Source: Treponema sp. (lineage in GTDB: Bacteria; Spirochaetota; Spirochaetia; Treponematales; Treponemataceae). Taken from it: a DNA stretch of 47,970 nucleotides. Made by a program: the position numbers and the translations under genes. The DNA is taken from contig JAILFZ010000077.1 of the NCBI GenBank assembly GCA_024697295.1, positions 1-47,970 on the forward strand. The letters are read 5' to 3'. This document shows, piece by piece, positions 18,875-26,178 of this stretch (position 1 is the stretch's first letter; each line of letters opens with the position of its first letter). The notes beneath the pieces were generated by a model. It was not told where the DNA came from. It did not search any database and was given only the letters and a program-made list of their open reading frames with translations.

Positions 18875-20626
18875 TTACCTTATGCTGTCAACATTTGCCT
18901 TGCCGCCCGGAACGTATGGCAGAACCTCTTCTTCCGGGTCAACTTTTACACGTACAAAGAACGGTTTGTTTTTGCGGTTTGCGTCAAAAGCTTTTTTATA
19001 CCAGTCTTTGTCGGTAAGAGCGTCTGCGGTTTCTATTCCAAAACCTTCTGCGATTTTTAACAAATCAACCTTAGTGTCAAAAATACTTGCGCTGAAGTTT
19101 TTATCAAACAAAAACTTCTGCTGCTGATAAACCATGCCCAACGTTCCGTTTTCAAAAACGATGACTGTTACAGGAAGATTGTTTTCTGCAAGTGTTGAAA
19201 GTTCCTGGATGTTCATCATGATAGAGCCGTCGCCTGAAAAACAGATTGTGCGTTTTTCAGGATTTGCGATTGCGCTGCCGATGGCCGCCGGAAGACCAAA
19301 GCCCATTGTACCGAGCGAGCCCGAAGTCAACAAAGTCATCGGCTTTAAAACCGGGTAATACTGGGCAACCCACATCTGGTGCTGGCCAACGTCTGTCGCA
19401 ATAAGAAGGTCTTCTTTTTTGGTGCCTGCCTTTTCTGCCAGGTCCGGAACGCTTTTGATAAACTCGCGTGGATTTACGCTGTCCATAAAGTCCTTGTTTT
19501 TCTTATCTTTGTCAGGGCTTCCGAGAGTGATGGAAAAGTTCTTCTGTTTTAATTCAACAATCTGCTTCAACCATCTGGCCTTTGCTTTTGAATTGGCATC
19601 TTTTTTGTTTTTCAATTGAATGCAGAGTTCCGGCAGTACGGATTGAACTTTTGCAACGAAAGAGATTGATGCTTCGAGAATTTTGTTGATTTCTGCGGCA
19701 TCGATGTCAATGTGGATAATCTTTGCATCGGGACAGAATTTATTAACAACCCCGGTTGCACGGTCATCAAAGCGGGCGCCGCAAACGATTACAAGGTCGC
19801 TTTCGTGCATTGCCCGGTTTGCGCAGTAAGAGCCGTGCATACCGACCATTCCGGCGTAAAGTTCGTCTTCTGAGGCGATACAGCCGATTCCCATCAGAGA
19901 ACTTACAACAGGCATAGGGCAGAGTTTTAAAAAGTCTTTGACTGCTTTTGATGAATCAAAATTGTTTGCTCCTCCACCAACGTACAGAACAGGTTTTTTG
20001 GATTCAATAATTGAATTGACTGTGCCGTCCAGAAGTTTTGCCTGTTCATCGTCTGTCGTGTGGAACCTTACGTCTTTTTCCTGCGGAATATATTTCTGTA
20101 AATCAGGCCATTCGTCAAATGTACAGCTTGCAAGCTGAACATCGCGAGGAACGTCGATTAAAACCGGTCCGCGGCGGCCATCCATTGCAATTTTAAATGC
20201 TTCGGGGATTGCGGTCAGAAGTTCTTCCGGCTTTTTTACGGCGATACTGTGTTTTGTAATCGGAAACGAAAGTCCAAAGGTGTCGGCTTCCTGGAAGGCG
20301 TCTGTACCAATCAAAGTTGTGTTAACCTGACCTGTGATTGCGATGATTGGAACTGAGTCACAGCGTGCGTCTGCAATCGAAGTCAAAAGGTTCATGGCAC
20401 CAGGTCCGCTGGTAGCCATACAGACAGCCGGGAGCCCTGTTGTGCGGGCGATTCCCTGCGCGATAAAACCTGCGGCCTGTTCCTGACGCACGAGGACGTG
20501 ATGAATTGAAGATTTGTTTAATTCATCATAGAGCGGCAAAATCGAGCCGCCCGGAATTCCTGCAACTACTTTGATTCCTTCCATTTCGAGAAGGGTAGTG
20601 ATAATTTGCGAGCCTGTGCGTTTCAT
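18875..20626 (-). CDS. ilvB: Acetolactate synthase, large subunit (copy 1)
   Basis: A 583-residue thiamine-diphosphate enzyme condensing two pyruvates (or pyruvate with 2-oxobutyrate), the first common step to valine, leucine and isoleucine. The N-terminal domain has VVAGIPGGSILPLYDEL and the catalytic Glu in RQEQAAGFIAQG; the middle FAD/regulatory-type domain has VVSSLMGIG; the C-terminal domain has the ThDP motif CFSGDGSIMMNIQELSTL with the later N of ENG. The ATG at 20626 follows AAAGGAGG; the frame extends to 20740 only through the hairpin-rich leader. It is under a Val/Leu attenuator. No regulatory small subunit (ilvN) gene is present nearby. A second, divergent copy lies at 24445. Confidence 0.93.
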   Translation of the reverse strand: MKRTGSQIITTLLEMEGIKVVAGIPGGSILPLYDELNKSSIHHVLVRQEQAAGFIAQGIARTTGLPAVCMATSGPGAMNLLTSIADARCDSVPIIAITGQVNTTLIGTDAFQEADTFGLSFPITKHSIAVKKPEELLTAIPEAFKIAMDGRRGPVLIDVPRDVQLASCTFDEWPDLQKYIPQEKDVRFHTTDDEQAKLLDGTVNSIIESKKPVLYVGGGANNFDSSKAVKDFLKLCPMPVVSSLMGIGCIASEDELYAGMVGMHGSYCANRAMHESDLVIVCGARFDDRATGVVNKFCPDAKIIHIDIDAAEINKILEASISFVAKVQSVLPELCIQLKNKKDANSKAKARWLKQIVELKQKNFSITLGSPDKDKKNKDFMDSVNPREFIKSVPDLAEKAGTKKEDLLIATDVGQHQMWVAQYYPVLKPMTLLTSGSLGTMGFGLPAAIGSAIANPEKRTICFSGDGSIMMNIQELSTLAENNLPVTVIVFENGTLGMVYQQQKFLFDKNFSASIFDTKVDLLKIAEGFGIETADALTDKDWYKKAFDANRKNKPFFVRVKVDPEEEVLPYVPGGKANVDSIR

Positions 20627-20629
20627 AAT

Positions 20630-20748
20630 GCCTCCTTTAAAATCTCCGCGATAGCGGTCGTGCAGGAGGCACGATATCGCAGTTTTGCCAACGGCAAAAT
20701 CTGCATGTGCTAAAAAGTACACGGAAGTACTTTTTAGCACGCCTCCTT
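20630..20748 (-). repeat. Three-hairpin insert flanked by duplicated GCCTCCTT
   Basis: Three perfect or near-perfect hairpins stand in line between the attenuator and ilvB: GTGCTAAAAAGTAC with its complement (20707-20740, 14-base arms), GCAGTTTTGCC with GGCAAAATCTGC (20679-20704), and GCGATA..TCGTGC with GCACGATATCGC (20648-20680). The block is bounded by direct repeats GCCTCCTT (20630-20637 and 20741-20748), which read on the transcribed strand as two copies of the AAGGAGGC ribosome-binding sequence. This looks like a palindromic insertion of about 103 bases that duplicated the Shine-Dalgarno site. Confidence 0.6.
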
Positions 20749-20751
20749 ATA

Positions 20752-20792
20752 AACAAAAAAAGCCCTCCAAAACCGTTAGTTCGGAGAGCTTT
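20752..20792 (-). terminator. Attenuator terminator of ilvB
   Basis: On the transcribed strand AAAGCTCTCC (20792-20783) pairs along all ten positions with GGAGGGCTTT (20768-20759), one pair being G-U, followed by a run of seven T. It sits 32 bases after the stop codon of the Val/Leu leader peptide, the arrangement of a ribosome-controlled attenuator. Confidence 0.85.
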
Positions 20793-20823
20793 GATTTTTT
20801 GCGTTTTATATTGAATTTATATT

Positions 20824-20907
20824 CTACGCAGAAAAATGTACCAGCTTTCCGGTTAGATGGACCACCACGAGAAGAACTAGTACTGTAACGACTGCGTTAA
20901 AATTCAT
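20824..20907 (-). CDS. Branched-chain leader peptide (ilvB attenuator)
   Basis: A 27-codon frame containing VVTVLVLLVVV at residues 6-16; in total eight Val and five Leu, with no Ile. Such a run of regulatory codons followed by a terminator hairpin is the hallmark of ribosome-mediated attenuation, as in the E. coli ivbL leader of ilvBN, which is likewise Val- and Leu-rich. When charged tRNA-Val or tRNA-Leu is scarce the ribosome would stall here and allow an alternative fold. An in-frame ATG six bases upstream (20913) is possible, but 20907 coincides with the predicted transcript start. There is no Shine-Dalgarno site. The annotation would usually be missed because the frame is so short. Confidence 0.85.
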   Translation of the reverse strand: MNFNAVVTVLVLLVVVHLTGKLVHFSA

Positions 20908-20913
20908 AGTCAT

Positions 20914-20942
20914 ATAATGCAGAAAAAGAGCGGGACTGTCAA
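20914..20942 (-). promoter_or_regulatory. Promoter of the ilvB leader
   Basis: On the minus strand a consensus TTGACA (20942-20937), 17-base spacer, CATTAT (20919-20914). Six bases then lead to the ATG of the leader peptide, predicting a leaderless leader-peptide transcript. Confidence 0.65.
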
Positions 20943-22992: not shown

Positions 22993-24315
22993 TTACAGTT
23001 TTTGAATCAATTCTTCTGCATTGCCGGTAAATGCGTTCTCGAGTTTTTGCGGGAACGCATTTTTTATTGCTTCAAGATTGTGCAGTAATTCTTTTTTACT
23101 TTTTGCAGTGATTACAACCTCGCAGTAGCCTGATTCGCGTAATTGAAGGGCGGCAAGATTCTTTATCTGGTGAACTTTTTTTACAAAGCCGTATTTTTTT
23201 AATTCAATTAATTCTGCTTCTTCGAGCAGATTAAATTTGATGTTTACGCTTAAAAGTGAGCGGCGTTTTTTATTCAGCACGGACTTTTCAAAAAGCGACT
23301 CAAGCACGCCAAGACCCTGACTGAAGGCGCAGGTTGTGCTCATCCCTGAAAGGCGGGGATTAATTTCTATTACGTACCAGTCTTTTCCGTCAAAAACAAG
23401 GTCAATCTGCGCGCTTCCGTTAAAGTTTAAGGCGCGGCACATTTTTTTAAGCATTGAATTCAATTTTGCAATTTTGTAACCGTGCTTTACGGGACCAGCT
23501 TTTACCGACTGCTTTGGGCTTGTAATTCCATATTTGTTTACGGAAAAGAAAAATGGTTTTTCTATTATGATTTTTTTTGGGGTCGAGACAAGTTCAACTC
23601 CGGCCTGCTGTCCCAAAATCATTTCTTCTGCAATACGGTCCGAGGTGTTTCTTTTTGAAAGCAGAAAGTTCCGTGCTTCGTCAAAATTCTGTACAACTTC
23701 CATTCCGTATGAACTTAAGCCGACTGTGTCCTTGATTACGACAGGGTAGCGGAGGGCCTTTAACTGTTCATAAACTGCGCTCTTGTACACGTTGCTCTTG
23801 ATTTGAGGGCGGTTTCCTGCGTTGATAAAAAGCGCGTGGTGGATGTAAACGGATTTTGGACATCTGATCCCGGCACGTTCGAGGGCGCGGTGTGTAAGCT
23901 GTTTGTCAAAGCAGGCAAGGCTTGCGCCCACAGGATGGCAGATTGTCTTTATGTTTTTCTGCCTCAAATAATCTGCAACAATCGAGTCCTTTACGCTGAA
24001 CCAGTCGAGCGGTTTGTCGTAAAAAGAGGCTGCGATTGCAATATCAGGCTCAAGGTTTTCCAAAAAGTCTGCAATTTCTGTTTCTTTGTCGGATTCAATT
24101 ATGTGATATTCAATTTGCGGCGCTTTTTGAATTATCTGTGCGCCTTTTAAGTCGAGCAAAAACATTCCGGGCAGTTGTGTTGCAACGATAAAATGGTGCT
24201 CGGGATATTTTTGTGCAAGTTGAATCAATTCATCGGCGCAGGAAGGGCTGTCATAGATATCAAAATCTTTTCCTTCGTAAATATTTGAACTTGTCGAATA
24301 AAACAAAATGCGCAT
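22993..24315 (-). CDS. ATP-grasp family ligase of unknown substrate
   Basis: A 440-residue ATP-grasp enzyme. The N-terminal Rossmann-like domain starts MRILFYSTSSNIYEG; the ATP-grasp core has YPVVIKDTVGLSSYGM (nucleotide lysine), EEMILGQQAGVELV and AQIDLVFDGKDWYVIEINPRLSGM with the metal-binding Glu and Asn of EINPR. Such enzymes join a carboxylate to an amine through an acyl phosphate. The EINPRLSG motif groups it with the carboxylate-amine ligases and carbamoyl-phosphate-synthase-like proteins rather than with biotin carboxylases. It is divergent from ilvB copy 2/argH and shares their promoter region, so an amino-acid ligase role is plausible. The start at 24315 is chosen because the -10 box lies just before it. 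Confidence 0.8.
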   Translation of the reverse strand: MRILFYSTSSNIYEGKDFDIYDSPSCADELIQLAQKYPEHHFIVATQLPGMFLLDLKGAQIIQKAPQIEYHIIESDKETEIADFLENLEPDIAIAASFYDKPLDWFSVKDSIVADYLRQKNIKTICHPVGASLACFDKQLTHRALERAGIRCPKSVYIHHALFINAGNRPQIKSNVYKSAVYEQLKALRYPVVIKDTVGLSSYGMEVVQNFDEARNFLLSKRNTSDRIAEEMILGQQAGVELVSTPKKIIIEKPFFFSVNKYGITSPKQSVKAGPVKHGYKIAKLNSMLKKMCRALNFNGSAQIDLVFDGKDWYVIEINPRLSGMSTTCAFSQGLGVLESLFEKSVLNKKRRSLLSVNIKFNLLEEAELIELKKYGFVKKVHQIKNLAALQLRESGYCEVVITAKSKKELLHNLEAIKNAFPQKLENAFTGNAEELIQKL

Positions 24316-24322
24316 GGCAACT

Positions 24323-24351
24323 ATTATATACGAGTGATTTTTCTTACTCAA
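24323..24351 (-). promoter_or_regulatory. Promoter of the ATP-grasp gene, leaderless type
   Basis: On the minus strand TTGAGT (24351-24346), 17-base spacer, perfect TATAAT (24328-24323), then seven bases to the ATG with no Shine-Dalgarno sequence. Its -35 abuts the -35 of the divergent ilvB promoter. Confidence 0.7.
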
Positions 24352-24393
24352 TTGAACTAATATCGAAAAAACGGTAAAATTGAATTCAATTTT
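24352..24393 (+). promoter_or_regulatory. Promoter and palindromic operator of ilvB copy 2
   Basis: TTGAAC (24352-24357), 17-base spacer, TAAAAT (24375-24380). A perfect 18-base palindrome AAAATTGAATTCAATTTT (24376-24393) covers the -10 and the predicted start site, the position of a repressor operator. The regulator is unknown; it lacks the spacing of an ARG box. Confidence 0.6.
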
Positions 24394-24444
24394 TTTTGGC
24401 GCCAATTGTATTTGTCTGCGCAGATTTTAAGAGGTAAATATTAA

Positions 24445-26178
24445 ATGAAAATTACTGGTTCACAGGTTGTCGTTGAATGTTTGGTTGAACAGGGGGTTGA
24501 TACTGTTTTTGGTTACCCTGGAGGAAACATCCTTAATATTTATGATGCACTTTACAAAAATTCAGACCGAATCAATCACATTTTGACCGCACATGAACAG
24601 GCCGCAGCACATGCCGCTGACGGTTATGCACGTTCAACCGGAAAAGTCGGTGTCTGTATGGCAACAAGTGGTCCTGGAGCTACAAACCTCGTAACAGGAA
24701 TTGCAACTGCCTACATGGATTCATCTCCAATCGTTGCAATTACATGTAACGTTGCAAACAGCCTCCTTGGAAAAGACACCTTCCAGGAAATCGACATTAC
24801 CGGTGTAACTATTCCAATTACAAAACACAACTTCCTTGTACGCGATGTAAACGAACTTGCAACTGTTCTCCGCGAAGCCTTCGAAATCGCACGTTCAGGT
24901 CGTCCAGGTCCGGTTCTTGTTGATATTCTTAAAGACGTTACAGCAGCCGAAGTTGAATTTGAGCCTCTTCCAAAAACTGCTGACAAGGGTAAACTCCTTG
25001 CAAAAAATCACGACAACTTTAAGCGCGTAATGGACGTAAATGTTCCGTCAGATGCCGAACTCAAGGCTGCCGCAGAACTTATCAACAGCGCAGAAAAGCC
25101 TGTAATCTATGCCGGCGGCGGTATCAAAATCAGCGGTGCAGAAAAAGAACTTCTGGACTTTGCAGAAAAGGGCGGTATCCCTGTCTGCGAAAGCCTTATG
25201 GCACGCGACTGCTTCCCTTCAAATCATCCTCTCTGTACATGGATGGTTGGTATGCACGGAACAAAAGCAAGCAATATGGCAATCACAGAAAGCGACCTTG
25301 TAATTGCACTGGGTTCACGCTTTTCTGACCGCGTAATCGGAGACCCTTCAAAATTTGCACAGAAGGCAAATGTTCTTCACATTGACATTGACCCTGCAGA
25401 AATCAATAAAAACATTCCGACTGATGACAGCCTTATCGGTGACCTTAAGTCAATCCTCAAACGTCTTATACCGGGCATCAAAAAGGACAAGCACACCAGC
25501 TGGAACCAGCAGATTGCAGAATGGAAAAAAGAAGTTCCGTCTACCTACAATGTAACTAAAAAAGACTCAATCAATCCTAAGGCACTTTGCGAAATTATCA
25601 ACAAAATTGCCGGAGACGATACATTCATTACAACAGAAGTAGGTCAGCACCAGATGTGGACTGCCCAGTTCTATCCGTTCTCAAAGCCACGCACTTTTGT
25701 AACAAGCGGCGGTCTTGGAACCATGGGTTTTGGTACCGGTGCTGCTATGGGTATTCAGGTTGCAAATCCCAAGGCAAGAGTTGTTCATATCGCAGGCGAC
25801 GGTTCGTTCCGCATGAACTGTAACGAACTTGCAACTATTGAACATTACGGTCTTCCGATTGTAATCGTGCTCGTAAACAACGGTGCCCTCGGTAACGTCC
25901 GCATGTGGCAGAGGCTTTTCTACGGAAAACGCTTTAGCCAGACAACCCTCGACTTTGGTCCTGACTGGCTCAAACTCGCAGATGCCTACGGAATCGACGG
26001 CTACAAGGCCACAAACAAAGACGAATTTGAAAAGGTATTTAAAACTGCCTTTGAAAGTCATAAACCATGCATCATTGATGCACGCGTAGACATCGACGAA
26101 ATGGTTCTCCCGATGGTTCCTGGAGGAAAGCCTGTTTACGCTCAGATTATGGAACTTTCTCAGGATATAATGAACTAG
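24445..26178 (+). CDS. ilvB: Acetolactate synthase, large subunit (copy 2)
   Basis: A 577-residue acetolactate synthase, distinct from the copy at 18875. Motifs are FGYPGGNILNIYDALYK, catalytic Glu in AHEQAAAHAADGYAR, CMATSGPGATNLVTGIATAY, the ThDP motif HIAGDGSFRMNCNELATIEH and VNNGALGNVRMWQRLFY. It starts at an ATG with AAGAGGTAAA upstream and is followed after nine bases by argH, an unusual operon partner. There is no leader peptide; instead a palindrome overlaps the promoter, so the two synthases are regulated differently. Whether one is anabolic and the other feeds fermentation cannot be decided; the FAD-binding-type middle domain looks like that of anabolic enzymes. Confidence 0.93.
   Translation: MKITGSQVVVECLVEQGVDTVFGYPGGNILNIYDALYKNSDRINHILTAHEQAAAHAADGYARSTGKVGVCMATSGPGATNLVTGIATAYMDSSPIVAITCNVANSLLGKDTFQEIDITGVTIPITKHNFLVRDVNELATVLREAFEIARSGRPGPVLVDILKDVTAAEVEFEPLPKTADKGKLLAKNHDNFKRVMDVNVPSDAELKAAAELINSAEKPVIYAGGGIKISGAEKELLDFAEKGGIPVCESLMARDCFPSNHPLCTWMVGMHGTKASNMAITESDLVIALGSRFSDRVIGDPSKFAQKANVLHIDIDPAEINKNIPTDDSLIGDLKSILKRLIPGIKKDKHTSWNQQIAEWKKEVPSTYNVTKKDSINPKALCEIINKIAGDDTFITTEVGQHQMWTAQFYPFSKPRTFVTSGGLGTMGFGTGAAMGIQVANPKARVVHIAGDGSFRMNCNELATIEHYGLPIVIVLVNNGALGNVRMWQRLFYGKRFSQTTLDFGPDWLKLADAYGIDGYKATNKDEFEKVFKTAFESHKPCIIDARVDIDEMVLPMVPGGKPVYAQIMELSQDIMN

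Follow-up and report, generated by a model that had tools for sequence, protein, structure and literature searches.

In this treponeme, a transcription attenuator that works through a translating ribosome, as in ivbL-ilvB, very probably controls the acetolactate synthase gene ilvB. The gene is preceded by a short leader frame with many Val and Leu codons, an intrinsic terminator and an alternative antiterminator; from their arrangement we predict the transcription start, the translation of the frame, its coupling to the polymerase and a response to the supply of amino acids. Proteobacteria and Actinobacteria provide well-documented examples of ribosome-mediated attenuation, and the mechanism proposed here would be the classical one. 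What appears to be new is its presence in the spirochaete phylum, for which we found no earlier report in the literature searched, and the apparently leaderless form of the leader message.

The leader and its parts

The window, by which we mean the whole stretch of DNA analyzed (47,970 nucleotides), belongs to a draft assembly that is 83%-complete and consists of 205 contigs. The leader is flanked by the divergent genes ilvD (plus strand, from 21117) and ilvB (minus strand, start 20626). As ilvD is divergent, the terminator ends no neighbouring upstream gene on the minus strand. The following features were assigned.

20937..20942, minus strand: -35 box TTGACA; this hexamer or a close match is present in nearly all orthologous leaders
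20914..20919, minus strand: -10 box CATTAT, with an N17 spacer between the -35 and -10 boxes
20905..20908, minus strand: predicted transcription start, at or adjoining the A of the leader ATG, placed by the spacing from -10 box to ATG
20824..20907, minus strand: leader peptide frame MNFNAVVTVLVLLVVVHLTGKLVHFSA plus stop codon, 27 codons; orthologous Val/Leu frames occur in the genus
20860..20892, minus strand: control codons 6-16 (GTC GTT ACA GTA CTA GTT CTT CTC GTG GTG GTC), containing region 1 of the protector hairpin
20843..20851, minus strand: region 2 (CGGAAAGCT), 5' side of the antiterminator, nt 57-65 of the leader
20795..20836, minus strand: inner helix of the antiterminator (TTTTTCTGCGT ... 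ACGCAAAAAA); covariation of the inner helix alone is weak
20779..20792, minus strand: region 3, 5' arm of the terminator (AAAGCTCTCCGAAC), partner of region 2 or of region 4
20759..20774, minus strand: region 4, 3' arm of the terminator
20752..20758, minus strand: T7 tract (TTTTTTT) of the intrinsic terminator
18875..20626, minus strand: ilvB, acetolactate synthase large subunit of the AHAS I (IlvB) type according to profile scores and tree, the putative regulated gene

A preliminary description of this DNA had pointed out the promoter TTGACA-N17-CATTAT, a 27-residue frame with 13 Val or Leu residues and no Ile, and ilvB downstream. We recovered all three: the promoter at 20942-20914, the frame at 20907-20824 and ilvB with its ATG at 20626 and a product above the TIGR00118 cutoff. 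The terminator that it described does end in seven T residues (20758-20752), whereas its stem, given there as ten pairs, comprises 13 pairs in our scan when G-U is allowed (20792-20759). A second in-frame ATG (20913-20911) directly adjoins the -10 box and probably falls outside the transcript, so the ATG at 20907 was taken as the leader start.

Short open reading frames with at least nine Val or Leu in 12 codons were represented by the leader frame alone in the whole window, against a chance level of 0.15 per window (mean of 20 dinucleotide shuffles). The leader RNA, for which a folding analysis had been suggested, folded with z = -4.4 relative to shuffles. Together with the repetition of the same layout in dozens of relatives, these data place the leader beyond chance.

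Conservation of the leader among relatives

The sequences upstream of ilvB were compared for 90 loci of the same GTDB genus. A Val/Leu leader frame was present in 47 of the 90, and a recognized terminator accompanied it in all but a few of these 47. Examples are MKFNALVKVVAVLVLVVNK, MNAKLLVTVVTVLVLKVFR and MFNSNLVKVSVLLVVVSI, while the leader MNTKLLVTVVTVLVVKVFR is identical in a contig of Treponema sp. RUI115 (L163, same GTDB genus) and in G053. Three loci in further genera of the family also have Val/Leu leaders, as does a less closely related 'Spirochaetes bacterium' (MKITLALNKALLVSVVVTL...). The comparative search that the preliminary description had called for thus found a conserved frame, and its proposal of ivbL-like ribosome-mediated attenuation is supported by a frame, a terminator and a geometry that are conserved both inside the genus and elsewhere in the family. 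In the sister species G156, the leader shows 2 differences in 153 nt versus 130 in 1749 nt for ilvB.

At the search threshold applied, the IlvB protein was matched in 187 of 196 genomes of the genus, a count that takes in genomes carrying only the paralogue. In roughly half of the ilvB orthologues within the genus (~40), no leader can be recognized, so the attenuator is not essential to the gene.

A promoter directly ahead of the leader start codon

Bacterial transcription usually starts about 7 nt past the -10 box. When the best-scoring -10 box was taken for each species, its end was 6-7 nt from the leader ATG in 33 of 46 species; a distance of 5-8 nt covers 39 of the 46. TTGACA or a close match was located 16-18 nt further upstream in the orthologous leaders. 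This spacing predicts an RNA that begins at or near the A of the ATG, and such an RNA would have no space for a ribosome binding site. We also saw no obvious Shine-Dalgarno sequence ahead of the leader ATG. The leader frame is therefore probably translated from a leaderless mRNA, with a start site that we infer from promoter spacing.

One might argue that the attenuator is right and that transcription starts further upstream, with a weak ribosome binding site ahead of the frame. This would be a variant of our explanation and compatible with it, and we regard it as unlikely. In its favour, the -10 boxes were assigned by consensus, and in a few species the best-scoring one ends 1-3 or 9-10 nt before the ATG. 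The narrow spacing in 39 of 46 species, the correctly spaced TTGACA and the lack of an obvious Shine-Dalgarno sequence argue against it, as do other fusions of promoter and ATG in the same genome, which precede long open reading frames.

Such fusions, with a promoter-like -10 box 5-8 nt before the ATG, are seen for example at seven loci of genome G000, and the open reading frames behind them are 118-501 codons long. Judging from these loci, leaderless mRNAs may be common in the window's treponeme. TTGAC-N-ATG patterns were slightly more frequent genome-wide than in the control (87 vs 74), an excess too slight for the count to serve as proof of leaderless genes in general.

Alternative RNA pairings and their covariation

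The leaders contain every RNA element of a classical attenuator: the alternative pairings 1:2, 2:3 and 3:4 occur in nearly all leader-bearing species, with compensatory changes. The 5' portion of the RNA forms the protector hairpin 1:2 in 43 of 45 distinct leaders. When the first 54 nt were masked, region 4 was treated as not yet made and regions 2 and 3 were anchored by their consensus, the antiterminator 2:3 paired in 43 of 45 distinct leaders as well (mean z -3.4). Terminator 3:4 is part of the MFE fold of the unbound full leader in all 45.

In the window, the antiterminator consists of CGGAAAGCU (20851-20843) paired with AGCUCUCCG in the 5' arm of the terminator, plus the inner helix. The antiterminator suggested earlier, AACCG with CGGTT, was not retained: AACCG overlaps the 5' end of region 2, whereas CGGTT is not the conserved partner. 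Energies of -16.4 kcal/mol for the window's antiterminator (20851-20843 with 20792-20779, inner helix 20836-20795) and -16.6 kcal/mol for the terminator were computed, and by these model values the leader is a balanced switch.

RNAalifold returned no structure from the gappy MAFFT alignment A1, and a covariance model was built from a clean alignment subset instead. In the resulting 28-leader alignment, which is fitted to the structure, 8 of the 10 base pairs in helix 2:3 have changed on both sides, compared to 2.6 in shuffles. A value this high was reached in 0 of 2000 shuffles, controls that ignore species relatedness, and sliding the partner destroyed the pairing. In the unfitted alignment A3, two-sided changes were present in 4 of 10 pairs of the helix, and 12 of 20000 shuffles scored as high in the consensus-anchored 2:3 test. 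The antiterminator covariance model matched 27 of 200 genomes, all of them close relatives of the model's seed, with one element per matched genome besides reverse-strand echoes of the same palindromic site.

In nearly all species, the distance from the A of the ATG to the start of region 2 is 56-62 nt. A ribosome stalled at codon 13 would be expected to end just short of this point, and this applies whether the frame stops ahead of region 2 or behind it. The element directly follows the stop codon in most species; in the window's species and at five other loci it lies inside a longer frame, at a similar distance from the control codons. A stop codon located after region 2, as in the window's species, counts against the model, as a released ribosome could re-expose region 2.

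Control codons and the nature of the frame

CTC followed by GTN occupies codon 13 in 39 of 45 leaders. This CTC is paired with region 2 in 36 of 40 leaders, a pairing that may explain its persistence. In codon 11 (ACA, TCA or GCA), the first position covaries with a nucleotide ~40 nt downstream, past the stop codon and outside the frame (A-U 12, U-A 8 and G-U 4 of 27).

Attenuators typically use rare control codons. In six long open reading frames of the window, GTC and GTG make up 13% and 3.5% of Val codons, respectively, and CTA accounts for 0 of 253 Leu codons. The window leader contains two CTA codons, located before region 2 or at its boundary, and two GTG codons; among the Val codons in the leaders of the genus, 43% are GTC.

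Could the frame instead encode a functional small hydrophobic (membrane) protein, with a terminator that merely ends its gene? Its conservation and hydrophobicity would suit such a protein, which we nonetheless consider very improbable. Across 42 distinct leaders, Val contributes 33% and Leu 17% of residues, about 51% together, whereas Ile is avoided (3.8%), which favours codon sensing over general hydrophobicity. In addition, the C-terminal part varies in length and sequence between species, codons 13 and 11 are constrained at the level of RNA, and the alternative antiterminator spans the end of the frame and the terminator.

Regulation by a riboswitch, a T-box or a leader-RNA-binding protein with an incidental Val/Leu frame is the least credible explanation: the leader is highly structured and a T-box is present upstream of a related ilvB in Fusibacter, but no Rfam family reached its threshold, either in the window or in 20 orthologous loci lacking the leader, and conservation is strongest in the frame, the position of the control codons and the 1:2, 2:3 and 3:4 pairings. 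The best sub-threshold cis-regulatory Rfam match was Phe_leader (23.8 bits vs 55), and His_leader was likewise sub-threshold.

Proposed mechanism

According to the attenuation model, transcription from the strong sigma-70 promoter would begin at the leader AUG or no more than one or two bases from it. A ribosome would load at the 5' end of the RNA and read the Val and Leu codons while RNA polymerase moves ahead. With ample charged Val- and Leu-tRNA, the ribosome would pass region 2, the terminator 3:4 would form and ilvB would be off. A shortage of Val or Leu would stall the ribosome at about codons 9-16, where it would cover region 1 and leave region 2 (nt 57-65) free. Free region 2 would then pair with region 3, and the polymerase would read into ilvB. 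If the leader was not translated at all, protector 1:2 and terminator would form together, and the default state would be off.

Such a device would give treponemes a predicted Val/Leu-responsive control of the branched-chain pathway and would offer a compact natural setting for testing how attenuation works on a leaderless message. With ~45 distinct leaders at hand, each helix of the switch can be traced through evolution.

Comparison with known attenuators

The preliminary description had equated the layout with that of enterobacterial ivbL. The parts agree: E. coli IvbL (b3672), MTTSMLNAKLLPTAPSAAVVVVRVVVVVGNAP, is likewise a Val-rich frame followed by a terminator and an AHAS I type ilvB of the same tree clade. 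The agreement ends at the untranslated stretch, which precedes the frame in enterobacterial ivbL, whereas the ATG of the Treponema leader, probably leaderless, lies 6-7 nt past the -10 box. Unlike ivbL, the Treponema leaders mix Val and Leu codons, and the ilvB of the window has no small-subunit gene directly after it. The string NAKLL is common to E. coli IvbL and some Treponema leaders (MNAKLLVTVV...) and is too short to indicate peptide homology.

The ilvBNC operon of Corynebacterium glutamicum (IlvL MTIIRLVVVTARRLP) resembles the Treponema locus in having a leader frame with Val codons, and its leaderless message would match the one predicted for Treponema. In PMC11857589 (citing Morbach et al. 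2000; also PMC4046766), transcription is reported to start one nucleotide from the leader start codon and the leader to be translated without a ribosome binding site. The C. glutamicum system differs in phylum, in leader sequence, in the additional use of Ile codons and in the operon ilvBNC. In Mycobacterium tuberculosis, an upstream frame rich in branched-chain amino acids (LVVI control codons) and an antiterminator/terminator switch are located before ilvB1 of ilvB1NC (PMC13236596). Frame and switch are thus shared with Treponema, and phylum, control codons and sequence differ.

We found neither ribosome-mediated attenuation of ilvB nor leaderless leader peptides reported for Treponema or other spirochaetes in the literature searched, which does not extend to some older surveys. 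One survey tallies leader genes near structural genes in Spirochaetales, and its main text mentions no example of this kind (PMC4833913). A scan of relatives for Leu frames ahead of leuA-like genes gave nothing convincing.

The IlvB enzyme and Val leaders in other phyla

IlvB (583 aa) scored 605 bits with TIGR00118 (cutoff 538), and its top bit score was obtained with PRK08155, acetolactate synthase large subunit. By these profiles, the product is a biosynthetic acetolactate synthase. In a tree of 116 rows made with a quick method, IlvB of Treponemataceae grouped with IlvB of Enterobacteriaceae (support 99, 69 rows), with a support of 80 at the inner fork. The clade also holds rhodocyclacean IlvB and single members of Fibrobacterota, Myxococcota, Bacteroidota and Bacillota. 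The ilvG-like clade and the second acetolactate synthase of the window (24445-26178) are placed apart from Treponemataceae IlvB.

Val-rich leaders precede most of the AHAS I relatives in the tree. A Val-rich frame and a GC-rich hairpin were found before same-clade ilvB genes in Fibrobacterota, Myxococcota and Bacteroidota (the last with two in tandem) and at three loci of Rhodocyclaceae and relatives; none of these leaders can be aligned by eye with that of Treponema. This distribution suggests that dedicated Val attenuators go along with the AHAS I type of ilvB in several phyla. More speculatively, and with more doubt than confidence, we consider that attenuator and AHAS I gene might form an old, partly horizontally moved module in at least five phyla that turned leaderless in spirochaetes. 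There, the loading of 70S ribosomes onto the 5' end of the growing RNA, not Shine-Dalgarno initiation, would set the coupling of ribosome and polymerase, perhaps as a general design of attenuation in Treponemataceae.

Two of the related loci deserve mention for their architecture. In the bacteroidote Breznakibacter xylanolyticus (L202), two Val frames, MTMHFFNNLLSVVVVVVSL... and MNIHLSTIVLSVVVVVVCQPPQG, are found between ~361 and 120 nt ahead of ilvB. With a terminator-like hairpin and a T tract behind each frame, the arrangement looks like a tandem attenuator. In Fusibacter paucivorans, a T-box leader (L167, 1182-1406; 136.7 bits), a different device, is located upstream of an ilvB of the AHAS I clade.

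Neighbouring sequence

Between the T tract of the attenuator and ilvB, the window carries a dispersed repeat of ~110 bp (20640-20752) that has 30 genomic matches, many of them 86-97% identical. It is missing in the sister species G156, and its opposite strand bears a weak likeness to the Rfam TD-2 RNA (32.1 bits, cutoff 48.7). On the other side of the leader, the gene at 24445-26178 encodes a second acetolactate synthase large subunit that is 45% identical to the first and has no upstream Val/Leu leader frame. Between ilvD and this second ilvB, an ATP-grasp protein is encoded (22993-24405, minus strand) that is weakly similar to D-Ala-D-Ala ligase and carbamoyl phosphate synthase-like families.
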